Source of the DNA: Planctomycetota bacterium
Lineage (GTDB): Bacteria; Planctomycetota; Phycisphaerae; Phycisphaerales; UBA1924
DNA: 64,000 bases
Direction of reading: 5' to 3'
Assembly (NCBI GenBank): GCA_033763975.1
Contig: JANRJM010000004.1
Location: forward strand, 1 to 64,000
Part shown: piece by piece, positions 22,658 to 50,901 of the stretch
Layout: every line of letters begins with the position of its first letter
How positions within the stretch are numbered: the first letter of the stretch is position 1
The notes under the pieces: generated by a model
The model's database searches: none
What the model was told of the DNA's origin: nothing
What the model saw: the letters and a program-made list of their open reading frames with translations, nothing else
Translations under genes and position numbers: made by a program

Positions 22658-25600
22658 CTACGGGATGCGGTTGAGCGAGGTGGTGATGCCGAAGGGCAGC
22701 CCGCTGGTCGCCCACCCGCCGCCCAGGAACAGGTCGTAGTGCTGCATGGTGGCGATGAAGGGCAGCGGGGCGGAGGTGTCGACGGCGAACCACTGACGCC
22801 CGGCGCGCTGCTGGACGATCTCGGGGCGCTCGTGGAGCTTGACCTCGGCGAAGCCGCGCGGGGCGATGGTCTGGGTGAAGGTGGACTCGCTGCCGTCGAC
22901 GAACACCAGGCGGATGCTGACGGTGTTGGTGAGGGCGGTGGGGTTATGGAAGAAGAGGGTCTCGAAGAAGAGCTGGCCGGCGTCCTCGACGTTGATGTAA
23001 GCATCGCCGAAGTAGAACTGACGTGCCGCGACGGTCGCGGGCTGGGTGGCTTCGCCGTCGCCGAACTGCGTCTGCCCGCCGAGGGCGTTGATCGGCACGC
23101 TGGAGACCCAGCGCAGGCCGACGGGCTGGTCGGCGACGAGCCCGAGCGTGGCGGCGGAGAGCACGACCTGCGAGCGCGGGGCGATGTCGATGGTGCGGGT
23201 GAAGCTCGGCAGGTTGAGGCGGATGTACGAGCCCGTGAGCGAGACGGTCGCGGTGGTGCTCCCCGGGTTGAAGAAGACGACCTCGGACGAAACGGTGGAG
23301 CCCTGCGCGATGTTGGTGATGACCCCGCGGAGGGCGGCGCCCTGCGGGTTGTCGGCGGTGACGGGCGTGCCCAGGACCGAGTACGCGGCGTCTCCCGAGA
23401 TCGAGTAGTGCGAGAGCGAGGCGACGATGCCCTCGAACGCGCCCTGGTCGCTGGGGTTCGCGGCGGCGGCGGTCACCGTCAGCCCGAAGGTGCCCAGCGG
23501 GAACTGCGTGAGCTGATCGATGGAGAACCCGCCGCGACGCAGCCCCTCGAAGCGCTGCGTGACGGAGATGCTCTGCCCGTTCTGCGACGCGGTGAGCGTG
23601 ACGTTGATGTCAAAGGGGTTGGGGTTGTAGAAAACGATGAAGTCGCGGGCCGTGCCCGGGTTGCGCTCGACGCGGGCGAAGTTCCACGTCGCCGAGAGCG
23701 TCTCGGTGAAGGAATCGCCCACGGCCGAGCCGAAGTCGTAGTGGGCCAGGGTGGCGCCCAGCGGGAGGTCGGACTCCAGGATGATCGAGTACGGGGTGTC
23801 GAGGATGAGCCCGGGGGTCTGGTAGAAGGGCCCGTCGATGAGGGTGAGCCCGTCGCGCGAGTTCGGCTGCACCACCCCGCTCGAGATGATCGTCTCGAGC
23901 TGGCCCCACTCGTAGCGGATGTAGACGGTGTAGTTGGCGGCGGCGCTGTTCGGGTTGATGATCGACAGGAACTCGCGGATGTTCGTGTTCGCGAAGCCCT
24001 CGGGGAAGAAGACGCGGTTGGTGAGCGGCTGGGTGTTGACCTGCACCTCGTACGAGCCGACCGACTCGCCCAGCCCGTCCACGATCACCCAGTAGCGGGT
24101 GTTCGCGCTGCCCGTGAAGGTGACGGAGGCGGTGACGCCCGGCACGCCGTCGGCGTCGAAGCCGTTGGCCACCGTGACCGCACCCAGTTCGTCGTCGTCG
24201 AAGCGTCCGTTGCCGTTGCTGTCCACCGGCACCGCGTTCACCACGCGCACCGACGCGTCGAGCAGCGAGCCCAGCGGCGTGATCACCTGCACGAACACGC
24301 GCCCCGCGGCGGTGGTCACGAAGGTGAAGAGGTCACGATCGCCGGACGGGCTGATCTGGTCGAAGCGCCCGGCGTCGCCCGTGCGCGGGTCCAGAGAGAC
24401 CGTGAGCGGCGCGTTGAAGTCGATCTCGGCCGGGTCGTCGCCGCCGCCGCCCGGGGGAACCGGGCCGTTCACCTGCACGCTGTACTCGCCCGCGAGCGTT
24501 CCGCCGGGGATGCCCGTGACCGCGCTGACGAGGATGTAGAACCGGGTGCCGGCGGCGGCGGTCACGGTGAAGGAGACCGACTGGAGCGCGGCGGAAGCGG
24601 CGACCTCGCCGACCTGCACGCCGCTGGCGTTGAAGACGGTCAGTCGCGGGGCGATGCTCCCCCCGGCGAGGAAGGGCGTGATGACGATCTGCTGCTCGCC
24701 GGTCTGGATGGCGACAAACGTGAAGAGGTCGGTGTCGTTCGTGGGCGACAGGCGCGGGTTGAGCGGGTCGTTGGGCGTGCTGCCGCCCACCTGCGCGACG
24801 CCGGTCACGGTGTTGAAGATCATGCCGGTCGCGAGCGTGAACTCGCCGGCGTTGGGATGATCGTCGATCGGCGGGGCGATCACGCTGAGCGAGTAGTCGC
24901 CGGTCACCGTCGTGACGGTGTTCGGGGTTCCCGTGTCCTCATAGCCCTGCACGGAGATGAAGTAGGTCGTGTTGCGGACGGCGGTGCCGGTCGCGGACGA
25001 GGTGGTGATGAAGAGGCTGTCCTGGCCAGTGCCGCTCGCGATGACGGTGCCCGCCGAATCGGTCACGAAGACGCGTGTGCGCAGCGTGCTGGAGCCCGGG
25101 CGCCCCACGACGACCTGGAAGGGCCCGCCGGCGGGCGCGGTGAACTGGAAGAGATCGGAGTCGCCGATGCGTTCGATCGACCCGGTGGCGTTGCCCAGGC
25201 CCGTGCCCGTGTCGACGACGACGCGGGTGGCGAACGAGAACTCGCCGGTGTCCACGGTGGTGGGGGTGGGCGCGTCCTCGGGCTGCGCGTCGGGGTGGTC
25301 GTCGGTGCCGGGGAAGTTGAACGTGACGGTGTACGCGCCCCGGTCGGCGGCGGGGTTGGCCCCCTGCACCACGACGTAGTAGTAGGGGTACGGGCGGACC
25401 GGGCCGCCCTGCGGCGCCTTCTCGCGCCCCGGGGTGATCGGGAACGTCACGCGCGCGGTGGTCGAGCCGGTGGCGAAGTTGTCGTTGTTCGCGATCCGCA
25501 GCAGCATCGGGTTCGCGTTGGGGTCTTCGCTCACCTCGTAGACCGACACGACCGGATCGAGCGTGGGATCGAGCGCCGTGACGTCGATCGTGAGCGAGCT

Positions 25601-28600
25601 GTAGAAGTCCTCGAACGAGAAGCGGAAGAGGTCGGTGTCGCCGGCCTCCTCGATGCTGCCGGAGATCTGTCCCAGGCCCAGGAAGTCGCGGAGGATGATG
25701 GTCTGCGCGTCCTCGAGCTTGGCGAAGTCGGCGTAGTCGTCGACCTCGGGCACGCCGGTGATCGCGACGTTGTACCCGCCCTCGGTCCCGCCTTCGCCGG
25801 CGATGAGCAGGTAGAACTCCTCGCCCTTCTGCACGTCGAAGTCGATGCGCGACCCGCCCCCGGAGATCGGCACGCCGGTCGCGACCGGGTTGTTGAGATC
25901 GGCGGTGCGGAAGAGGAGCACGGCCGGGTTAAGCGTGGAGCCCGTGGCGCGGGTGACGTCGATCCGCATCGTGCCCGAGCCGGGCGCGATGAACGTGAAG
26001 AGGTCCTGGTCGTCGGGGTTGTTGAAGGGGGTGTCGTTGATGATCCCGCTGAACGAGGCGGTGCCGTTGGCGCTGCCCGAGGAGAGATCGCCGATGCCGA
26101 TCGGGGTGGCGAGGTTCTGGCCGGCGCCGCTGAAGTTCGCGTGGTCGTCGAAGACGGTCTGCCCGTTCTCGATGTCGTTGATCTGGTTGGGCATCGCGTT
26201 GATGAGGAGCTGGTACCCGCCGGTGGTCTGGCGGATGTCGAGCTCGCGCGCGATGCGCTCGACGCGGGCGTTGGGGTCGGCGGACGAGCCGTCGTCGAAG
26301 CGGGCGCCGCTCTCGACCTGCACGAAGTACGTGTTGCCGGCGATGACCGGGACGACGACGCGCGGATCGCGCGAGGTGAAGCGGAAGACGCCGACCGCGC
26401 CGAACTGCACGTCCTGGAAGTCGCTCGTGATGGCGGCGTTGTCGTCGCTGTAGGCGATCTGCTCGAAGTCGTTGCGGAAGACGCGGAGCGCGCCGTCGAA
26501 CATGTTGAACGTCTGCTTCGCGAGCCCGCGGAACGCCGTGCCGTACGCCTCGCCGTACTCGTCGGTCATGGTCGAGGTGGAGAGGCGGATCTCGGCGAAG
26601 CCGGTGAACTGGGCGCGGAACGAGTACAGGTCGGTGTCGTCGATCTCGGAGATGGTGCCGACGTCGCCGCGCGAGTTGAACGAGTTGCCCGTGGACGGGT
26701 TCACCTGCTGCACGCGGGCGATGTTGCCCTTGAGGGGCTGGGCGGCGGAGTTGCGGTAGTTCGTGTTGTCGCCGATGCCCAGCGGGAGGGTGATGGTGAG
26801 CGCGGAGGTGAAGTTGCCCTCGTCGGTCTCTTCCGAGACGCGGGCGTTGAGGTCGTCGCGCACGCCGTCGCCGTTGAGGTCCTCGGGCATCGCGTCGACG
26901 ATGACGCTGAGGGTGTAACGCCCGGTGCCGCCGCGGTCCGTGGTGGTCGTGTCGTCGCCGCCGCCGAGGCTGCTGACCTCGATGTAGTAGGTCTCCCCGC
27001 CCCAGAGAGTGATGCCGGCGAGCTGGGTGTCCAGGCCCGGCGCCGCGAGGGAGGGGTCGATCATGCCGGCCGGATCGGGGAAGGGCGGGGCGATCGTCTC
27101 GCTGCCCGGGCGCCCGAAGCCGTACACGATGTTGAAGTTCGAGTCGTACACGCGGACGCGCATGTTGGCGAACGAGCCGCTCGCGGGCGAGACGGAGATC
27201 GCCATGCGGGTGGCGGGGCGGTCGTGCCGGTCCCAGTCAAGGGGGTTGCCGTCGTCGAAGCCCGAGAGCGCGTAGACCGCGGTGGGGGGGATGGTCTGAT
27301 CGGTGTTCACCACGCCGCCGGCGAGCGAGGTGAAGTAGAAGAAGTCCTGCCCCGTGAAATCGTCGTGGAACGCGCTGAACTGCGCGACGTTCGCCGCGAG
27401 GACCGGGTCGTTGAGGTCGCCGTTGGTGACTTCGGTGAACTCCCCGCCGACGTAGAGGACCTGCTGCGGGTCGCCGGAGTTGAGGTCCTCGGCTTCGATG
27501 CCCGGCTCCTGCGCGTCGGTGAGCGTGGTGAGCGTGCGCACGATGCCGTTGGTGCCCACGGAGGCGTTGAACCAGCCGAAGCCGATGGGCGCGTCGGTGG
27601 CGGGATCGACGGCGAAGGCGACGAGATTGTCCAGGCCGCCGGCGTTGAAGGCGCCGCCCGCGACCAGCACCGGGTCGATGGTCGTGTTGTTGATGTCCGG
27701 CGGGTCCCACGTCGTGAGGGCGTACACGCCGACCGGATCGCCGTTGGCGTTCGGGGCCGTGATGCCCGCGTCCACCTGCTCCCAGGTGAGGCGCGGGTTG
27801 AAGTTCGCGAGCTGCGTGTCGCGCGAACCGCCGGCCGCCGCGCCGAGGAAGCCCCACGCCGCCAGGTTCGCGGCGGGGGTGTTCCCGCCCTCGCCGTCGG
27901 CGATGGACGTGAACTCCCCGCCGATGATGAGCACGGTGTCGGGGGCCTCGATCTGCCCGACCGCCCCGTCGGGGTCCCAGCCGGCGTAGGTCGTGAGCGC
28001 CCGCACGGGCCCGTTGGGCCCGGCGTTGGTGCGCACGCCCGCCGCCGGGCCGCCCCAGACCATGTCGATGAACGCCCCGTCGTAGTAGGCGAGGTTCTGC
28101 ACCGCCAGCCCGTCGATCGTGCTGAAGTCGCCGCCGATGAACAGCGAGGGCGGGATGTCGCGGCTGTCGTTGACCTGCGGGACCGGGGGCGGGCCGGGCT
28201 GCCCGGCGCGCTCCTCGCCGGCGTCCGCGGGGTCATAAACCGTCAGCGCGTACACGGGACCGTCGGTCCCCGCGCCGAAGGGCAGCCAGCCGTTGACCAC
28301 GTCGAACGTCGCGAGGTTGGCCGCGGCGTTCCCGTCGACCGTCGTGAACTCGCCGCCCACGGCGAGGTAGGGCACCGCGTTGGTGGCGATCTCCGGACGG
28401 TTCGTGTCGACGTCCAGCCCCGGGTCGTTGAGGCCCGGGACGGTCTCTTCAGGGATGAACGACGCGAGCGCGCGGACCGGGCCGTCGACGTCGCCCAGGC
28501 TTGCCCAGCCCCACTGGCCGGTCGTGAAGTCCTGGATCCACACGGCGAGGTTCTTGAACGTCACGGGCCCGAGCAGGCCGGGGACCACGAGGTCGAAGTC

Positions 28601-30580
28601 GCCGCCGACGACGAGCCAGCGACGGCTCATGCCGGTCGGCACGGTGCCGGGCGTGCCGGGGTCGTAGTCGTGCAGGGCGTAGATCTCGGCGCGGGTGGTG
28701 CCGGCGGTGTCGGGGTTGTCGTTGAACCCGTACGTGACGTTGTTCGCCTGGTCGAAGAACTGCGCGCCCGTGTACCACCAGTCGGCCGCGTCCCAGGTCG
28801 TCAGCGTGCGCGAGGTGGTGAGCCAGGGGGTGTTGTTGCTGCCCGCCTGGAAGGCCCCGCCGACGAAGAGCGACGTGCCCTGGTCGTCGTTGTTGCCGGC
28901 GTAGTCGATCAGCATGTCCGTCGGCGCGGTGAACTGGAAAAGATCGGTGTCGTCCGACGCCGACCCGTTCGCGTCGTAGATGCGGCCCGTCGCGCTCGCG
29001 ATCGCCCGCACGCCCCGGTCGCGGATGTGGTTCTGGTTCGCGTCGAGCACCGGCGTGGGGCCGCTGAACGTCAGCCCCGTCGCGAGCATCGCGATGCGCC
29101 GGGCGGCGTCGCGCTGCTCGGGCGTCGGGTTCGCGCCGAGCACCGGCGAGTTGATGTGGTCGTCGTCGCCGGCGGCGTTGGTGACGTTCGCCTCGACATT
29201 GATGATGTACTGCGTGGCGCTGTTGATCTCGAACCCGTCGACCACCACGTAGTACAGCTCGCCCCCCACGAGGCTCACCTGGAGCTGCGCCGCCAGCCCG
29301 GCGAAGTTGTCGTTGTACGCGACCAGGTTGCCCGCGTCGTCGAACAGGCGCACCGCCGGGTCCGTCACCGGCGCCAGGCCCGTCGGCGTGACGGTGATGA
29401 TCGCCAGCCCGTCGCCCGAGGCCTCGAACCCGTACGAGTGCGTCTGGAACGTCGGGCGCGGGATGGGCGGGGGAACGTTCGGCGCGGTCGTCGCCACGAA
29501 GGCCCCGGTGTCGGACCCCCGGCGCGTGACCGAGTTCAGCGTGATCGTCTCGACGACCGTGTCCGCCACCAGCCAGAAGTCGCCCGTCGCGAGCGTGACG
29601 TCGAACGCGGGGTCGCCGGCGTTGCGCGGGCGGATCTCATCGCTGCGCACGCGGATGAAGTACGTCTCGCCCTGCTCCGCGAGGAACGTCGTGAACGCGT
29701 CGTTGATGCGCCCCGCGTCGCTGTCGGCGTTCAGCAGCACGCCCTCCGAGTCGTACACGTCCAGGCGCGTGTCAAGGCGGTCGGGGATCGTGCTGCCCGG
29801 CAGGAACGGGCGGTTGTACCGGTTGTGCTGCGCGTTCAGCGTCACCAGGCTCGTCTGGGCCGCGGTGTACGTCCACACCTGGTCGTCCTGACGCACGCCC
29901 AGCGATCCGCCCACCGGCCAGATCGAGAGCGGAGCGGGCGGGGGCGTCGCGGGGTCGATCGCCACGCCCTCGGCCGTCGCCGACCAGGCGGCCGGGACCG
30001 TCGCGAAGGTGTTCGACAGCGCCGAGATGCGGAGCGTGAAGGTGTTGCCGGTCGTGAGGTTCGGGGCCGGCCCCGCGTAATCGCTGGAGACCACGACGTA
30101 GTACGTCTCGCCCGAGGTCGCATGGAAGCCCGCCCAGCCGTCGGTCGCCAGCCCGGTCGTCAGGATGCCGTTGTTCGTGCCCGATGCCACCTGCGTAAAG
30201 GTGCTGTCGAAGACGGTGACCCGGGTGTTCAGCGTGCTCGCGGGCGACTCGTTCGCCGTGTCCGCGAGGATTCGGACGAAGTCGGACGCGGGCGCCACGA
30301 ACCGGTAGTAGTCGTTGTCGGTCGGGGCCTGCGCCGGGTTGATGACCCCGGCCGAGGTCCCCCGCCCGCCGCCGTCCAGGTTCACGAGGATCGCCGTGGC
30401 GAACGAACCCTCGAGCATCGTGCGGGCTTCGAGCGAGTCGACGCCGGCGGCCTCGGGACGCTGCTCGCTGAGCCCGAGCGCTCGACCCACTCGCGCCGCG
30501 AGCGAGCGGGCGCGCCGGCGCTCACGAACAACGGGATTCGAGCGGCGGGCAAGGAACGAGCGACCATCGCGGCTGTTCAT
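22658..30580 (-). CDS. Giant secreted protein: LEPR-XLL-like N-terminus, PPC repeats, propeller insert, C-terminal NP-type modules
   Basis: 2640 residues. The ATG at 30580 has GGAG six bases upstream (a GTG four codons earlier is possible). The N-terminus is arginine-rich and reaches SLEARTML near residue 50, which fits the planctomycete LEPR-XLL motif that replaces a normal signal peptide. About ten pre-peptidase C-terminal (PPC)-like beta-sandwich units follow, marked by D-T/S-D-L-F-x-F (TDNDYYRFVAP, DDTDLFQFTAP, DDTDLYSFRAQ, GDSDLFQFTAPA, NDTDLFTFVA, GDRDLFTFVT). One is interrupted by a seven-repeat region at about residues 555-1120. The last 450 residues hold four related modules built on F-x-N-P (IINPNS, FYNPNPF, FFNPGST, FFHNPTA). 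It is probably cell-surface or secreted; the ligand is unknown. Confidence 0.85.
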   Translation of the reverse strand: MNSRDGRSFLARRSNPVVRERRRARSLAARVGRALGLSEQRPEAAGVDSLEARTMLEGSFATAILVNLDGGGRGTSAGVINPAQAPTDNDYYRFVAPASDFVRILADTANESPASTLNTRVTVFDSTFTQVASGTNNGILTTGLATDGWAGFHATSGETYYVVVSSDYAGPAPNLTTGNTFTLRISALSNTFATVPAAWSATAEGVAIDPATPPPAPLSIWPVGGSLGVRQDDQVWTYTAAQTSLVTLNAQHNRYNRPFLPGSTIPDRLDTRLDVYDSEGVLLNADSDAGRINDAFTTFLAEQGETYFIRVRSDEIRPRNAGDPAFDVTLATGDFWLVADTVVETITLNSVTRRGSDTGAFVATTAPNVPPPIPRPTFQTHSYGFEASGDGLAIITVTPTGLAPVTDPAVRLFDDAGNLVAYNDNFAGLAAQLQVSLVGGELYYVVVDGFEINSATQYIINVEANVTNAAGDDDHINSPVLGANPTPEQRDAARRIAMLATGLTFSGPTPVLDANQNHIRDRGVRAIASATGRIYDANGSASDDTDLFQFTAPTDMLIDYAGNNDDQGTSLFVGGAFQAGSNNTPWLTTSRTLTTWDAADWWYTGAQFFDQANNVTYGFNDNPDTAGTTRAEIYALHDYDPGTPGTVPTGMSRRWLVVGGDFDLVVPGLLGPVTFKNLAVWIQDFTTGQWGWASLGDVDGPVRALASFIPEETVPGLNDPGLDVDTNRPEIATNAVPYLAVGGEFTTVDGNAAANLATFDVVNGWLPFGAGTDGPVYALTVYDPADAGEERAGQPGPPPVPQVNDSRDIPPSLFIGGDFSTIDGLAVQNLAYYDGAFIDMVWGGPAAGVRTNAGPNGPVRALTTYAGWDPDGAVGQIEAPDTVLIIGGEFTSIADGEGGNTPAANLAAWGFLGAAAGGSRDTQLANFNPRLTWEQVDAGITAPNANGDPVGVYALTTWDPPDINNTTIDPVLVAGGAFNAGGLDNLVAFAVDPATDAPIGFGWFNASVGTNGIVRTLTTLTDAQEPGIEAEDLNSGDPQQVLYVGGEFTEVTNGDLNDPVLAANVAQFSAFHDDFTGQDFFYFTSLAGGVVNTDQTIPPTAVYALSGFDDGNPLDWDRHDRPATRMAISVSPASGSFANMRVRVYDSNFNIVYGFGRPGSETIAPPFPDPAGMIDPSLAAPGLDTQLAGITLWGGETYYIEVSSLGGGDDTTTTDRGGTGRYTLSVIVDAMPEDLNGDGVRDDLNARVSEETDEGNFTSALTITLPLGIGDNTNYRNSAAQPLKGNIARVQQVNPSTGNSFNSRGDVGTISEIDDTDLYSFRAQFTGFAEIRLSTSTMTDEYGEAYGTAFRGLAKQTFNMFDGALRVFRNDFEQIAYSDDNAAITSDFQDVQFGAVGVFRFTSRDPRVVVPVIAGNTYFVQVESGARFDDGSSADPNARVERIARELDIRQTTGGYQLLINAMPNQINDIENGQTVFDDHANFSGAGQNLATPIGIGDLSSGSANGTASFSGIINDTPFNNPDDQDLFTFIAPGSGTMRIDVTRATGSTLNPAVLLFRTADLNNPVATGVPISGGGSRIDFDVQKGEEFYLLIAGEGGTEGGYNVAITGVPEVDDYADFAKLEDAQTIILRDFLGLGQISGSIEEAGDTDLFRFSFEDFYSSLTIDVTALDPTLDPVVSVYEVSEDPNANPMLLRIANNDNFATGSTTARVTFPITPGREKAPQGGPVRPYPYYYVVVQGANPAADRGAYTVTFNFPGTDDHPDAQPEDAPTPTTVDTGEFSFATRVVVDTGTGLGNATGSIERIGDSDLFQFTAPAGGPFQVVVGRPGSSTLRTRVFVTDSAGTVIASGTGQDSLFITTSSATGTAVRNTTYFISVQGYEDTGTPNTVTTVTGDYSLSVIAPPIDDHPNAGEFTLATGMIFNTVTGVAQVGGSTPNDPLNPRLSPTNDTDLFTFVAIQTGEQQIVITPFLAGGSIAPRLTVFNASGVQVGEVAASAALQSVSFTVTAAAGTRFYILVSAVTGIPGGTLAGEYSVQVNGPVPPGGGGDDPAEIDFNAPLTVSLDPRTGDAGRFDQISPSGDRDLFTFVTTAAGRVFVQVITPLGSLLDASVRVVNAVPVDSNGNGRFDDDELGAVTVANGFDADGVPGVTASVTFTGSANTRYWVIVDGLGESVGSYEVQVNTQPLTNRVFFPEGFANTNIREFLSIINPNSAAANYTVYIRYEWGQLETIISSGVVQPNSRDGLTLIDGPFYQTPGLILDTPYSIILESDLPLGATLAHYDFGSAVGDSFTETLSATWNFARVERNPGTARDFIVFYNPNPFDINVTLTASQNGQSISVTQRFEGLRRGGFSIDQLTQFPLGTFGLTVTAAAANPSDQGAFEGIVASLSHYSISGDAAYSVLGTPVTADNPQGAALRGVITNIAQGSTVSSEVVFFNPGSTTATVSLTGSYIRLNLPSFTRTIDIAPRSQVVLSAATLGLVADQPVGLRWVSSVPINALGGQTQFGDGEATQPATVAARQFYFGDAYINVEDAGQLFFETLFFHNPTALTNTVSIRLVFVDGSESTFTQTIAPRGFAEVKLHERPEIVQQRAGRQWFAVDTSAPLPFIATMQHYDLFLGGGWATSGLPFGITTSLNRIP
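27430..28872 (-). repeat. Seven GGxF repeats (putative beta-propeller) inside the giant gene
   Basis: Seven strands with the pattern hydrophobic-x-x-GG-[EDA]-F occur in order: LFVGGAF, LVVGGDF, LAVGGEF, LFIGGDF, LIIGGEF, LVAGGAF, LYVGGEF. They lie at about 28860, 28600, 28355, 28130, 27920, 27655 and 27445, about 70-88 codons apart. Most are followed by an ANLA-like phrase and preceded by a GPVxAL phrase, as in blade repeats. The blades are diverged in sequence, so this is an old repeat and not a recent duplication. Confidence 0.7.
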
Positions 30581-30949
30581 GTCGGGCTCCACAAATCTCC
30601 GGCGATCGCGGTCGGCCGGCTCCTCCGGCGGGACGATCGGCCACGTGTCGTGCGTGCGGCGCCGCGGCAGGGGTCCTCCCTCCGCTCGCGTGCTCCCCGC
30701 GCGTTCGCGCCTTGGGCAGGCGTCGCGCCGGACGTCGGCTCACGCCGATCGTTCGAGCACGCGCACGCTCACTCGACCAGCATACCGACTTCCGACGCGT
30801 GTCGTCCAGTCCGGTTCCCGTCCTAACGCATTGCGAACGGCTTTCGGCGGCCGGGGCTCCCTCCCGGCGAACGCTGGTGCGTCACCATTCGCGTCGCATG
30901 ACCGGGTGTTCCGCCGGCGATGCAGGTTCGTCACGCGCTTCGCGAACCG
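30581..30949. other. Intergenic region upstream of the giant gene
   Basis: About 370 bases with no convincing gene. On the minus strand a weak promoter candidate is TGGACG (30803-30808), 18 bases, then TATGCT (30779-30784), each matching four of six consensus bases, about 200 bases upstream of the giant gene. No clear terminator follows the racemase-like gene. Confidence 0.3.
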
Positions 30950-45345: not shown

Positions 45346-46671
45346 ATGGCGAAGAACAAGCAGGACGGCGGCGACGTTCCCCCCACAACCACCGGCGACA
45401 CGGGGGGAGCCGGGTTTCGCGCCCGCAAGGTGACGACGTGCTCGTTCTGCGGGAAGACCAGCCGCGAGGTCGGCCCGATGGTGGAGGGGCCGAACCAGGT
45501 CTACGTGTGCTCCTCGTGCGTGGACCTGTGCCAGAACATCTTCCGCCAGGAACGCCGGCGGGTGAGCTCGGCGACGACCTGGCTGCGCGAGGTGCCCGCG
45601 CCGCGCGAGATCAAGACGTACCTGGACCAGTACGTGATCGGGCAGGACCACGCGAAGCGGGCGCTGGCCGTCGCGGTGCACAACCACTACAAGCGTCTGC
45701 TGCACCTGGAATCCGCCGAGGCGGGGAGCGTCGAGCTCGACAAGAGCAACATCCTGCTGATCGGGGCGACGGGCTCTGGCAAGACGCTTCTGGCCCGCAC
45801 GCTGGCGCGGATGCTGAAGGTGCCCTTCGCCATCGGCGACGCGACGACGCTGACCGAGGCCGGGTACGTGGGCGAAGACGTCGAGAACCTGCTGCTGAAG
45901 CTGCTGCAGAGCGCGGACTTTGACCTCGAGGCCGCCCAGCGGGGCATCATCTACGTCGACGAGATCGACAAGATCGGCAAGACGAGCAACAACGTGTCGA
46001 TCACGCGCGATGTCTCGGGCGAGGGCGTGCAGCAGAGCCTGCTGAAGATGCTCGAAGGCACGGTGAGCAACGTGCCCCCGCAGGGCGGGCGCAAGCACCC
46101 CGAGCAGCAGTACATCCAGGTCGATACGTCGAACATCCTGTTCATCTGCGGCGGGACGTTCACCGGGCTGGAGGAGATCATCCGCCGGCGCCTGGGCAAG
46201 AGCCGCATCGGCTTCCACGACTCGCACTCCACCGCCGACGACGTGCGCGAGACACGCCGCGTGCTGCAGCAGGTCACGCCCGAGGACCTCGTCGACTACG
46301 GGATGATCCCCGAGTTCATCGGGCGACTGCCCGTGCTTGCGCCGCTCGAGCCGCTCACCGTCGACACGCTGGTCCACATCCTCACCGAGCCCAAGAACGC
46401 CATCGTGCGCCAGTACGAGCACCTCTTCGGGCTCGAGAACGCGAAGCTCTCGTTCACGCCCGCGGCCCTGCGGCGCATCGCCGAGAAGGCCCTGAAGCGC
46501 GACACCGGCGCCCGCGCGCTGCGCTCCGTGATGGAAGAGATCATGCTCGACCTCATGTTCGAGCTGCCCGAGCACCGCGCCGAGGGCGTCGAGTTCGTGA
46601 TCGACGAGAGCGCGGTCGACCGGCGCCGCTCGCTCGCCGAGCTGCGCGTGGCTCGCAAGGAATCCGCGTAA
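45346..46671 (+). CDS. clpX: ATP-dependent Clp protease ATP-binding subunit ClpX
   Basis: AAA+ unfoldase, 441 residues. The N-terminal zinc-binding domain is [11 protein letters not shown] with CSSCVDLC. Walker A is [10 protein letters not shown], Walker [11 protein letters not shown], the pore loop GYVGEDVEN and the RKH loop GGRKHPEQQ. No clpP is adjacent. The leader holds a GCGCGG...CCGCGC inverted repeat around 45317-45333. The TAA stop abuts the convergent gene's stop with no spacing. Confidence 0.96.
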
Positions 46672-48027
46672 CTAGTTCAGCGGCGCGAACACCCACGCCC
46701 CGTGCGGCGCGCGCGTCGCGAGGTGCACGCGCACGCCCGTGTCGAGCAGCGGGCGGCATGCGCGTGCGTCGGTGGTGATGAGGTGCAGCGTGGCGCCGCG
46801 CGAGCGGACGTCGCGCAGCGACCCCGCGTGCGCCGCTTCCAGCAGCGGCGCGTGCGCGTCGGCCCACGCGGCCGCCGCCAGCAGCCCCCGCACCCCTGCC
46901 TCGTGCGACGCCTGCCCCTGGGCCACCAGGTGCAGCACGCCGGTCTGGTCGCACGCGAGCCAGACGCCCGGGGCCGCCGGGCACGCGGTGGAGAGCGGCG
47001 CAATCCCGAGGTGCTCGAGCACGGCGGATTCCGGCGCGGTGGCGTCGGCGGCGCGGGCGTGCGAAGCCGTCCCGGTTCGCCCGGGCGAGGCGTGCGCGGT
47101 CTCGGGCGCCGGCGGGGCGGGCGAGGCCAGCGTGGCCGATGGAGCGGATGCGGGTGCCAACGGGGGTGCCCCCGCGGGTGCGTCGGCCGCGCGTGCCGGG
47201 ACGGCAGCGGCAGCGCGGCGCCGCGCGTCAGCACCGGTGATCATTCCCACCAGGGTGGCGACGTCGTGGGTCTCATCGGCCCGGAAGAGCAACTGCGTGG
47301 TGCACGCGCCGACCTTCGCGACGCGACAGCCGGTCTCGATGGGGCGCGACAGGAAGACAGACGTCGCGAGGGCGACCTTCTGCTCGGCGACGGCCGCCCG
47401 CTCGTCGTCAGCGCCCATGAGGCCCAGGCGGAAGGTGGGGGCGTGCTCGCGGCTGTCGGCGAGATCGACGAAGTTCTTGATCGTGCGATAGGTCGAGACG
47501 ACGGCGGGGTCGTCGGCGCCGCAGAGCACGGTGAGCGAGTCGATGCCAGGGGTGAGCGCGAAGTCGGCCTCGCCGGTCTCATCGACGCGGAGCACCCAAC
47601 GGGCGCACTGCGACGCGGCGGCGTCGACGGCCTGCGCGAGCGTGGTGCCCGCGGGCGAGTGGGCCCCGCCGATGCGCGACGACACGCGCGCCTCGCTCCC
47701 GCGCGGCATCACCAGGTCCAGGCGCGTCTGCCCGCCCTGCACGCGCAGCAGGGCGACGGGCGCGTGGGCCGCGTCGGCCTGCGACTTGGCGTACTGCGTG
47801 ACCCACGCCGCCCCGAGCACGGGGAGATGCCCGAGCACGAGCCCCTCGATGTGCAGGGGGGCGGGTTCGGGCGCCGGGCGCTGCCGCGCGGGCGCGGGAG
47901 CCTCGTCGTTCACCAGGCGCAGCGGGACGGCGGGCGCGGGGTGCAGGAACAGGTCCGCGAGCGCGTCGCACTCAGACTCGCCCGCGCGGGCCGGCGCGTC
48001 CGGCAGGTCGGCAAAGGTGGGGTTCAC
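46672..48027 (-). CDS. MinD/ParA-like protein without a P-loop, partner of the ParA fusion
   Basis: 451 residues from a GTG whose GAGGAG ribosome site lies next to the ParA stop, 11 bases away. The middle (FALTPGIDSLTVLCGADDPA, STYRTIKNFVDLADS, VALATSVFLSRPIETGCRVA) resembles the C-terminal half of MinD/FlhG ATPases, but no Walker A is present. An alanine/proline linker (~residues 265-335) leads to a second C-terminal domain (GVWLACDQTGVLHLVAQGQ). The placement in this family is tentative. Position and coupling suggest a complex with the ParA-like protein. Confidence 0.6.
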   Translation of the reverse strand: MNPTFADLPDAPARAGESECDALADLFLHPAPAVPLRLVNDEAPAPARQRPAPEPAPLHIEGLVLGHLPVLGAAWVTQYAKSQADAAHAPVALLRVQGGQTRLDLVMPRGSEARVSSRIGGAHSPAGTTLAQAVDAAASQCARWVLRVDETGEADFALTPGIDSLTVLCGADDPAVVSTYRTIKNFVDLADSREHAPTFRLGLMGADDERAAVAEQKVALATSVFLSRPIETGCRVAKVGACTTQLLFRADETHDVATLVGMITGADARRRAAAAVPARAADAPAGAPPLAPASAPSATLASPAPPAPETAHASPGRTGTASHARAADATAPESAVLEHLGIAPLSTACPAAPGVWLACDQTGVLHLVAQGQASHEAGVRGLLAAAAWADAHAPLLEAAHAGSLRDVRSRGATLHLITTDARACRPLLDTGVRVHLATRAPHGAWVFAPLN

Positions 48028-48038
48028 GCCACGACTCC

Positions 48039-49556
48039 TCACGAGGCCCGGGCGGCGGCGTCGCTCACGACGATCACGCTGTCCGCCTCGCCGAACGGGT
48101 TGGGTTCGCAGTGGTTGTTGTGCGGGTCCGCCGACCACTGCCCGTCGATCACCAGCCGGTACCGGTGTGCGCCCGGCGGCAGGCGCAGGCACAGTTCGAA
48201 CACGCCCAGGTCCGCGTTCAGGCTCATCGGGTGCGCGGTGGGCGACCAGTTGTTGAACGACCCCGCGACCGCCACCCGCTGCCCGCTCGTGCCCGGCTGC
48301 ACGAACAGCACGCCCTGGTTCGTCACCCGCACGCCCAGCAGGCGGGCAGCATCCGGGCTGGGGCGGCGTACGGGCGTGGGAGCGTCGGGAACCAAACGCA
48401 GGACACTGCTCGCGCGCGGGGCATCCGCCACCATCGCGCCCGCCGTGCTTCCCGCGCTCGCGGGCGCCACGTCGGGCAAGGGAACGCCGCCGCGGAGACC
48501 CGACTCGGGCGCGGATTCGGCCAGCGCTTCGCCCGTCGCGGGCGCCGTGCGACCGCCGGTCGCCACCCGGCGCAGGAACTCCTGCGCGCGCCGTGCGACG
48601 TCCTCGGCGCGGCTCACCGGCTTGAGGTCGGGCGTGGATTGCTCGGCGCCCGGCTCCGGGTGGGCATCGGGGCCCGGCCGGGCGCCGGTCGCCAGCACGC
48701 GCGGGCTGACGGGCGGAACGTGGACCTCGGGCACGCCGCCGTCGTGCTCGGCGCCGTCGATCGCGTCGGGCTCGACGCGTCCTTCCAGGTGCTCGATGGC
48801 CCAGCGGGCGAGCGCGTTGTAGTCGTGCGCGCCGGGCGCGTGCGGGGCGTAGTCGACGATCGCCTGTCCGTGCGACGCCGCCTCGCGCAGCGCGACGTCG
48901 CGCCGGATGACGGGCGGGACGACCCGCCCCTTGAACCGGCGGTGCAGTTCGTCGAGCAGGTCGCCGGCGACGGCGTTGTCCGGGTCGTGGATGGTCGCGA
49001 GCACCCACACGGGCAGTTGCACGCCCAGCCGGCGCGACAGCGTCCGCACCGTGTTCACCTGGCGCGTCGCGCCCTGCAGCGAGAAGTAGCTCGTCTCGAC
49101 CGGGATGAGCACCGTGTCCGACGCCGCCAGCGCGTTGTACGTGAGCAGCCCGATCGACGGCGGGCAGTCGATGCACACCACGTCGTAGTCGTGGCGGAAC
49201 TCGTGCAGGACGCTCGCCAGCCGGCGCTCGCGGTCGGGCAGTTCCGCCAGCCCGCCCCGCGAGGCCTCCAGCCCGGCGAGCTTCATCCGGCTCGGGGCCA
49301 GGTCGAGGTTCCGCGCCACGCGCCACAGCAGGCGAGAGATGTCGAGCGGGCGCGACCCGGCACCCAGCATCGCGTCGCCGATGTCAAGCTCCAGCCGGCT
49401 CTCGGGGATGCCCAGCCCCGCGGCACAATGCGACTGCGGATCCATGTCGACCAGCAGCACCCGCCGCCCCCGGCGGGCCAGCATCGCGCCCAGGTTGATC
49501 GCGGTCGTCGTCTTCCCGCAACCGCCCTTCTGGTTGATGATTGCGATCGTCCGCAT
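48039..49556 (-). CDS. ParA/MinD-type ATPase fused to an AMPK-beta/CBM48-like E-set domain
   Basis: 505 residues. The N-terminal ATPase has the deviant Walker A IINQKGGCGKTTTAINLG and the switch VCIDCPPSIGLLTYNAL, then DPDNAVAGDLLDEL. A linker of about 150 residues rich in proline and alanine follows. The last ~85 residues are an early-set glycogen-binding-type domain: VAVAGSFNNWSPTAHPM, then LPPGAHRYRLVIDGQW and DPHNNHCEPNPFGE. This domain occurs in AMPK beta and isoamylases; on a ParA it is unusual. The start has GGAGG. No parB or centromere-like repeat was seen nearby, so a role other than chromosome partitioning is likely. Confidence 0.88.
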   Translation of the reverse strand: MRTIAIINQKGGCGKTTTAINLGAMLARRGRRVLLVDMDPQSHCAAGLGIPESRLELDIGDAMLGAGSRPLDISRLLWRVARNLDLAPSRMKLAGLEASRGGLAELPDRERRLASVLHEFRHDYDVVCIDCPPSIGLLTYNALAASDTVLIPVETSYFSLQGATRQVNTVRTLSRRLGVQLPVWVLATIHDPDNAVAGDLLDELHRRFKGRVVPPVIRRDVALREAASHGQAIVDYAPHAPGAHDYNALARWAIEHLEGRVEPDAIDGAEHDGGVPEVHVPPVSPRVLATGARPGPDAHPEPGAEQSTPDLKPVSRAEDVARRAQEFLRRVATGGRTAPATGEALAESAPESGLRGGVPLPDVAPASAGSTAGAMVADAPRASSVLRLVPDAPTPVRRPSPDAARLLGVRVTNQGVLFVQPGTSGQRVAVAGSFNNWSPTAHPMSLNADLGVFELCLRLPPGAHRYRLVIDGQWSADPHNNHCEPNPFGEADSVIVVSDAAARAS

Positions 49557-49686: not shown

Positions 49687-50901
49687 TCATGAAGAACGGA
49701 TGGCGTCGAGCCCCGTGTCGACCGCCCCTGCGGGCGGGTCGACCACCACCCGGGCCCGCCCGATGCCGTTCGGAACCACCAGGCGCAGCGAGCCCGCACG
49801 GGCCTTCTTGTCGTGCGCCATGCGCGCTCGAACCGTCCCGTTGTCGGGCATTCCCCCGATGCGGGTGGGCAGGCCGACGAGCCCGAGCACGTCGCGCGAC
49901 CAGCGCTCGACCTCCGCCCCGCACAGGCCGAGAGCGGCCCCCGCCGCCGACGCCGCGATGAGTCCGAGGCCCACCGCCTCGCCGTGCAGCAACTTCACCG
50001 GCCGTCCGTCGGGGTCGGCCAGCCCGTCGAGCGTCTCGATCGCGTGCCCGAAGGTGTGCCCGAGGTTCAGCAGCGCCCGCCCGCCGGCGTCGTCGGGCGC
50101 GAGTTCGCGCGGGTCGTGCAGCACCACCCCGGCCTTGAGCGTGACGTTGCGCGTCACGAGCTCGGCGAAGAGGTCGGTGCGAGAGGCCGCGTTGATCCCG
50201 CCCAGCGTCGGCGCGTGCGTGCGGATCCAGTCTGTCAGCCCCGCGTCCGGGCGCGGGGCGCTCGCGCCGAGCATCGCGTGCTTCACGCACTCGGCGAGGC
50301 CGGCCCGCAGTTCGCGCGCCGGCAATGTCGCGAGCGTGCGCAGGTCGATCACGACGAGCGCGGGATCGTGGAACACCCCGAGCATGTTCTTCGTGAGTAG
50401 GGTGCCCCCGCCGGGCGCGGGCACCCGGAGGTTGACGCCCGTCTTGCCGCCGATGCTGGCGTCGACCATGGCGAGCAAGGTGGTGGGGCACTGCACGAGG
50501 GGCACGCCCCGCCGGTAGATCCCCGCCGCGAACCCGGCGACGTCGCCCGTGATGCCCCCGCCCACGGCGACGACCGGGTCCCAGCGATCAAACCGGTGCT
50601 CGGCGAGCAGGGCGGCCAGTTTGAAGGCGGCGTCCGGCGACTTGTGCTCTTCGCCGGGCTCGAACGAGGCGTGCACGACCTCGAAGCCGGCGGCTCGCAG
50701 CGACGGGCAGGGGTCATGCCCCGCGCGGGCCGCCCCGGCGTCGAGCACGACGAACGCCCGGCGTGCCCCCGGCCCGACCGCGCCCCGCACCAGCGAGCCG
50801 AGCGACGCGACGAGCCCGTCGCCCACGACGACGTCGCCTGTCGCGTGACGTGCGGCGGGGTCGGCGCGCTCGCCCGCGCGGAGGCGTGAGTGGATGTGCA
50901 C
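49687..50901 (-). CDS. aroB: 3-dehydroquinate synthase
   Basis: Second enzyme of the shikimate pathway, 404 residues from a GTG. Conserved blocks: VVAVGGGITGDVAGFAAG, YRRGVPLVQCPTTLLAMVDA and SIGGKTGVN. The metal ligands lie in LAECVKHAML (Glu), NLGHTFGHAIE (His) and LLHGEAVGLGL (His). It stands in the minus-strand run behind panD, 29 bases away. Confidence 0.93.
   Translation of the reverse strand: MHIHSRLRAGERADPAARHATGDVVVGDGLVASLGSLVRGAVGPGARRAFVVLDAGAARAGHDPCPSLRAAGFEVVHASFEPGEEHKSPDAAFKLAALLAEHRFDRWDPVVAVGGGITGDVAGFAAGIYRRGVPLVQCPTTLLAMVDASIGGKTGVNLRVPAPGGGTLLTKNMLGVFHDPALVVIDLRTLATLPARELRAGLAECVKHAMLGASAPRPDAGLTDWIRTHAPTLGGINAASRTDLFAELVTRNVTLKAGVVLHDPRELAPDDAGGRALLNLGHTFGHAIETLDGLADPDGRPVKLLHGEAVGLGLIAASAAGAALGLCGAEVERWSRDVLGLVGLPTRIGGMPDNGTVRARMAHDKKARAGSLRLVVPNGIGRARVVVDPPAGAVDTGLDAIRSS

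Follow-up and report, generated by a model that had tools for sequence, protein, structure and literature searches.

A ParA ATPase fused to a glycogen-binding-type domain and its putative P-loop-less FlhG-like partner in Phycisphaerae: a possible system for positioning or reading out an alpha-glucan store

According to PMC10241942, ParA/MinD ATPases place DNA, carboxysomes, flagella, chemotaxis clusters and division sites, and the words 'glycogen' and 'polysaccharide' are absent from its text. Glycogen appears only as a predicted substrate in the available part of PMC11266412. The window analyzed here, a 64,000-nucleotide stretch of a Phycisphaerae genome (contig JANRJM010000004.1, positions 1 to 64,000, Planctomycetota bacterium), carries on its minus strand a ParA ATPase fused to an AMPK-beta/CBM48-type E-set domain (ParA-CBM), followed by a gene for a protein with a predicted FlhG/FleN fold that has lost the nucleotide-binding loop (gene 2). 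The likeliest reading of the pair, made tentatively and with somewhat less than even confidence, is a ParA-type system of Phycisphaerae that positions or reads out an alpha-glucan store, its predicted cargo. We know of no case in which a ParA-type motor positions or senses a sugar store. Neither a ParA with a glycogen-binding domain nor a MinD partner without a P-loop is described among the literature matches listed (Creative Commons-licensed PubMed Central text). The features of the pair are given in window coordinates:

48039..49556, minus strand: ParA-CBM fusion gene, 505 amino acids (P0001), from profile matches and solved relatives
48792..49556, minus strand: ParA ATPase domain, spanning roughly residues 1-255 and retaining KGGCGKTT, D39 and D130 (profile match, alignment)
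48342..48791, minus strand: linker between the two ParA-CBM domains, roughly residues 256-405, in which a short SRAxELAxRA-type segment recurs (alignment consensus)
48060..48341, minus strand: AMPK-beta/CBM48-type E-set domain of ParA-CBM, about residues 406-499 (profile and structure-relative match, alignment)
48028..48041, minus strand: stop codon of ParA-CBM and the 11 bases, GGAG among them, that precede the GTG start of gene 2
46672..48027, minus strand: gene 2, 451 amino acids (P0002), consisting of an N-terminal motif, a pseudo-FlhG domain, a linker and a C-terminal domain
47944..47967, minus strand: conserved N-terminal motif DALADLFL of gene 2, residues 21-28, where model confidence is low
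47212..47862, minus strand: residues 56-272 of gene 2, an FlhG/FleN-like domain that has lost the nucleotide-binding loop
47803..47832, minus strand: residues 66-75 of gene 2, GHLPVLGAAW, where the lost P-loop would lie (placed by eye)
46675..47037, minus strand: residues 331-451 of gene 2, a C-terminal alpha/beta domain that may be PD-(D/E)XK-like but lacking the catalytic residues

Residues 1-180 of P0001 match the Pfam profile AAA_31 (E = 3.4e-47), and residues 2-254 have ParA 8ray (E = 1.7e-44) and Soj 1wcv as solved relatives. The deviant Walker A motif KGGCGKTT, D39 of Walker A' and D130 of Walker B are present in the window protein, and K10, K15, D39 and D130 are invariant in 96 of 96 aligned ParA-CBM homologues. 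The resemblance to the Soj/ParA partition ATPases extends over the whole ATPase domain and all its catalytic motifs. ParA-CBM differs from them by its C-terminal glucan-type domain, by the lack of an adjoining parB and of a parS-like site in the window, and by coexisting with a separate plain ParA in the genome. McdA (6noo) and other cargo ParAs belong to the same ATPase family. In the McdAB system the partner gene adjoins the McdA gene, and ParA-CBM likewise has its partner gene next door, but it differs in carrying a fused putative cargo module and in having a pseudo-ATPase partner without a basic N terminus. A class member outside the 96-homologue set, G127 (L157), has the altered P-loop KGGCAKTT.

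The C-terminal domain matches AMPK1_CBM (PF16561, residues 424-499, E = 3.7e-13, 49.9 bits against a cut-off of 26.8) and CBM_48 (E = 3.1e-6), and among solved structures the AMPK beta-1 glycogen-binding domain 1z0n is its best relative (E = 1.2e-9). The AAA_31 and AMPK1_CBM matches lie in one frame, so the fusion read by an earlier note from the letters of the window is real, with the coordinates right and on the minus strand. In AMPK, residues W100, K126 and W133 reportedly touch the sugar and their mutation strongly cut glycogen binding, and L146 and T148 are also among the sugar-contact residues (PMC2642990). The window protein shares the domain family (1z0n, 1z0m) and both tryptophan positions with AMPK beta; it differs in placing the domain on a ParA ATPase rather than a kinase subunit and in having R, F, E and D for K126, L146, T148 and N150. 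W437, R467, W474 and D492 are the equivalents of AMPK W100, K126, W133 and N150, the last of which we take to be a sugar-contact residue as well. All 96 homologues have W at the W100 equivalent and 87 have it at the W133 equivalent; 82 have R and 8 have K at the K126 equivalent, and 80 have N at the N150 equivalent. The earlier note had set its reading against an E-set domain devoid of all carbohydrate-contact residues; what is found is a domain that keeps the W100 and W133 positions.

The genome that contains the window encodes a GT3 glycogen synthase (E = 6.5e-183; G000:C3:108789-110570), an enzyme type typical of eukaryotes, and an alpha-glucan phosphorylase (E = 2.8e-136, above cut-off). 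A GT4 enzyme has glgA_Coryne as its best NCBIfam match, below cut-off. A GT5-type synthase (PF08323) was considered and rejected, as the matches were weak (best 3.5e-8), leaving the GT3 enzyme as the synthase. ParA-CBM is the only AMPK1_CBM match and the only CBM_48 match in the genome, so no GH13-type branching enzyme with that domain was found. The retained contact residues, together with the alpha-glucan genes of the genome, make the predicted binding of glucan by ParA-CBM plausible from sequence.

The gene 2 product, whose GTG start at 48027 lies 11 bases past the ParA-CBM stop as the earlier note had it, belongs to no family in Pfam or NCBIfam. Among 47 gene-2 members, Pfam matches were to five families, one member each with a best E of 0.006, and were taken as chance. 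An AlphaFold2 model built from the 47-row alignment A1 has a predicted local distance difference test score (pLDDT) of 84.5 and a predicted template modeling score (pTM) of 0.71. Residues 56-272 of the model adopt the FlhG/FleN fold (Foldseek E = 4.2e-5), and the best fold match is FlhG 4rz3 (Z = 11.8, root mean square deviation 3.9, 168 residues aligned). When sequences alone are compared, no solved structure matches better than FleN (E = 0.1), which is no proof by itself. In the search of 81 Phycisphaerae genomes the gene-2 profile reaches a MinD-like gene of the same genome (E = 3.6e-4), which has an intact P-loop and minD_arch as its best NCBIfam match, below cut-off; the profile also matched other frames, mostly of about 300-380 residues. 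Gene 2 is called MinD-like on the strength of this profile reach, the AlphaFold2 model and the FlhG/FleN fold matches. None of the 96 gene-2 sequences, of which 93 are distinct and some incomplete, contains either of the two P-loop patterns searched, which agrees with the earlier view of a MinD-like protein without Walker A. L68, P69 and W75, assigned by eye to the old P-loop site, are invariant in the 47 rows of A1. Gene 2 thus resembles FlhG/FleN (4rz3, 5j1j) in the predicted fold of residues 56-272 and differs by the loss of the P-loop, an extra N-terminal motif and an extra C-terminal domain.

The N-terminal motif (DALADLFL, SEISHLFLS and similar) recurs in 75 of the 96 sequences by a strict pattern, some matches of which lie clearly elsewhere, and in 73 of 85 by a looser pattern confined to residues 1-230 of each frame. 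The C-terminal domain modeled alone has a pLDDT of 96.3. It matches EndoMS-type and other nucleases best, with 2vld at Z = 7.9, below the trusted level, and Foldseek E = 0.044; the top matches are mostly what we take to be PD-(D/E)XK nucleases. Provided that the strands are matched rightly, the consensus at the expected catalytic strand is LHL and lacks E-x-K. The model suggests that the domain is possibly PD-(D/E)XK-like without the catalytic residues. Two gene-2 frames of family f67, at 236 and 231 residues, are too short for this domain. A SecDF identity suggested by the C-terminal profile (E = 0.042) was discarded, as neither fold search placed a SecDF chain among its best 50 matches.

A scan of species genomes with P0001 returned 203 relatives, of which 80 loci were kept. 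These loci are from planctomycetes, mostly Phycisphaerae or its subgroups and some labeled only Planctomycetota or Planctomycetaceae, except for two labeled Leptolyngbya (L013) and uncultured bacterium (L065). A gene-2 homologue follows ParA-CBM on the same strand in at least 59 of the 80 loci. The remaining 21 include two that end too early to judge (L069, L087), and distant homologues may escape the profile; widening it with distant members caught more in the Phycisphaerae sample. Ten loci were read from among the matches in 119 genomes of the phylum: the seven in the class (L088-L094, with L088 the window's own) are fusions and the three outside it (L095-L097) are plain ParAs, so that a fusion elsewhere in the phylum is possible. 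Within the 81 Phycisphaerae genomes, 75 have an AMPK1_CBM match of some kind, and at least 55 (54 and the window's own) have ParA and CBM in one open frame, a count that rests on candidates of fitting frame length, so that weak cases are possible among the other 26. Three doubtful frames (L151, L179, L180) were checked and are not fusions. Gene 2 adjoins ParA-CBM in 37 of the 55 fusion-bearing genomes and was not found in 18.

A quick tree placed 54 fusions, including that of the window and without G127 because of its odd P-loop, on one side of a branch with only four plain ParAs on the other (Shimodaira-Hasegawa-like approximate likelihood ratio test, 99). The presence of gene 2 changes state four times on the ParA tree, and counting does not separate gain from loss. 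The spread fits early presence with later losses. Both glucan tryptophans persist with or without the neighbor: W100 in 36 of 36 and W133 in 35 of 36 class genomes with gene 2 (own genome excluded), and each in 17 of 18 with the fusion and no gene 2 found. The exception among the latter, G097 (L181, L094), combines the loss of both tryptophans with a very long ParA branch. This pattern fits a joint function of ParA-CBM and gene 2, in a single case.

Conservation of the pairing supports a dedicated two-protein system well, and the co-occurrence proposed earlier as a check is present in class genomes and loci alike. Gene 2 is most likely a dedicated pseudo-ATPase partner of ParA-CBM. The pairing, the spread and the preserved motifs make it likely that the two proteins form a working system. 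In the glucan reading, the ParA domain would run an ATP-dependent dimer cycle on the nucleoid or another matrix, and the CBM domain would grip a particle of alpha-glucan or an assembly of enzymes associated with it. Gene 2 would act as regulator or adaptor of the ATPase, with its DALADLFL-type motif as a candidate docking peptide. The system would distribute the carbohydrate store and share it out at division, or else would report how much of it there is. If true, a carbohydrate cargo or input would be new for a ParA/MinD ATPase, the sharing of glycogen at division in bacteria would become a question, and an orphan ParA, and a pseudo-ATPase family conserved in many Phycisphaerae genomes, would gain a testable role. 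The boldest form of the proposal is rather unlikely: that this would be the first positioning ATPase to grip a storage polysaccharide cargo by its own glycogen-binding domain, ruled by a dead FlhG-like partner, in a glycogen inheritance or sensing system across a planctomycete class.

Several observations weigh against a glucan cargo or a nucleoid-based cycle. The fusion shows no association with GT3 synthase in the 81 genomes (28 of 55 with and 14 of 26 without the fusion, p = 0.82; a weak partial PF05693 match of G164 at 2.2e-6 was left out, so that 42 of 43 genomes were used) or with phosphorylase (49 of 55 and 25 of 26, p = 0.42), although the phosphorylase test has low power because 74 of the 81 genomes have the enzyme. 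All 11 genomes of family f66 have the synthase and only one has the fusion. The earlier suggestion that the pair positions or senses a polysaccharide is supported in part, by the identity of the two proteins and their conserved pairing, and finds no correlation between the fusion and these enzymes. Gene 2 and synthase co-occur in 24 of 37 against 18 of 44 genomes (p = 0.045), a value that is uncorrected, kinship-dependent and not relied on. The synthase matches listed for the window genome, and one of its two phosphorylase matches, lie on contigs other than the window's. The window protein has D at the N150 position, and the W133 equivalent is missing in nine of the 96 homologues. At the equivalents of Soj R189 and R218, which we take to be DNA-binding positions, the window protein has the non-basic residues D193 and A222; in the 96 homologues the counts are 44 for R and 62 for R or K. 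DNA-binding residues are poorly conserved in this family of ATPases, according to PMC7229837. The segment around the gene-2 motif, with start codons unmapped, is net negative in 59 of 73 sequences and positive in 4, and partner proteins of ParA/MinD ATPases reportedly have a positively charged disordered N terminus (PMC10241942). Without a basic N terminus, gene 2 is no plain member of that kind.

The alternative that survives best, though it too is doubtful, is that the E-set is a protein-docking module and no glycan binder, so that ParA-CBM places a protein cargo, perhaps gene 2, with glucan uninvolved. The lack of co-occurrence with either enzyme is as expected for such a module. Six of the seven genomes without a phosphorylase match keep the fusion, and eight of the nine fusion-keeping homologues that lost the W133 equivalent have gene 2, the ninth (L069) ending too early. 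The near-invariance in the class of the W100 position and of R or K at the K126 position speaks for a glucan ligand, as a scaffold would not obviously need these residues.

It is unlikely that the protein is purely a glycogen or energy sensor, in which glucan would switch the ParA ATPase, as glycogen inhibits AMPK, and gene 2 would relay this state to division, flagella or transcription much as FlhG/FleN do. AMPK is inhibited through a domain of this kind (PMC2642990), and the fold of gene 2 is closest to FlhG/FleN, regulators of flagellar number; yet the clustered neighbors include no evident target gene, and the separate MinD-like gene with an intact P-loop could be the FlhG of this genome.

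A role for ParA-CBM as chromosomal partner of the ParB encoded in this genome is very improbable. As the earlier note observed, no parB is visible in the window, and no parS-like site occurs in its 64,000 nucleotides. The genome has one ParB_N match, on another contig. This parB (L137, contig C13, 4825-5907 and 6201-6509) has three parS-like sites with one mismatch each, and 200 shuffles gave none. The parB stands apart from any parA: none appears among its listed neighbors, as called by a crude gene picker, so that distance alone is not decisive against ParA-CBM. The genome encodes a second, plain Soj-like ParA on contig C9, however, and plain ParA-like genes are present in five further fusion genomes (G002, G032, G051, G067, G082). 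In only one of the 80 loci (L055, 1-993) do the fetched flanks of ParA-CBM contain a homologue of this ParB, and 26 of the 81 class genomes have no fusion among the matches listed. A parB and parS-like cluster such as the earlier note had in mind thus exists on another contig, away from any parA, but with no clear sign that it uses ParA-CBM.

The least probable account makes gene 2 a relic, a decaying FlhG duplicate paired with ParA-CBM by inherited gene order: the universal loss of the P-loop and the 18 fusion genomes in which gene 2 was not found suit it, but the invariant residues at the lost P-loop site, the recurring N-terminal motif, the confident two-domain model and the adjacency kept in 37 of 55 genomes do not.

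The pair is flanked in the window by two further genes:

45346..46671, plus strand: clpX, convergent neighbor (TIGR00382 above cut-off)
49687..50901, minus strand: aroB-like gene, upstream neighbor (best match TIGR01357, E = 2.2e-77, below cut-off)

Direct searches found a clpX homologue in 15 and an aroB-like homologue in 44 of the 80 ParA-CBM loci. Many clusters from an all-against-all comparison of neighbors were antisense or out-of-frame shadows, and ParA, gene 2, aroB-like and clpX were kept. A recurring secreted-looking protein (PYLPYWNHGGWG) is encoded downstream of ParA-CBM in L064, L068, L071 and L077, where gene 2 was not found, and its relatives occur in a cluster of 7 loci. A GT3 synthase match is present in 43 of the 81 class genomes. 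Elsewhere in the window, positions 22658-30592 hold a 2644-residue open frame on the minus strand, which a 2695-residue frame overlaps on the opposite strand.

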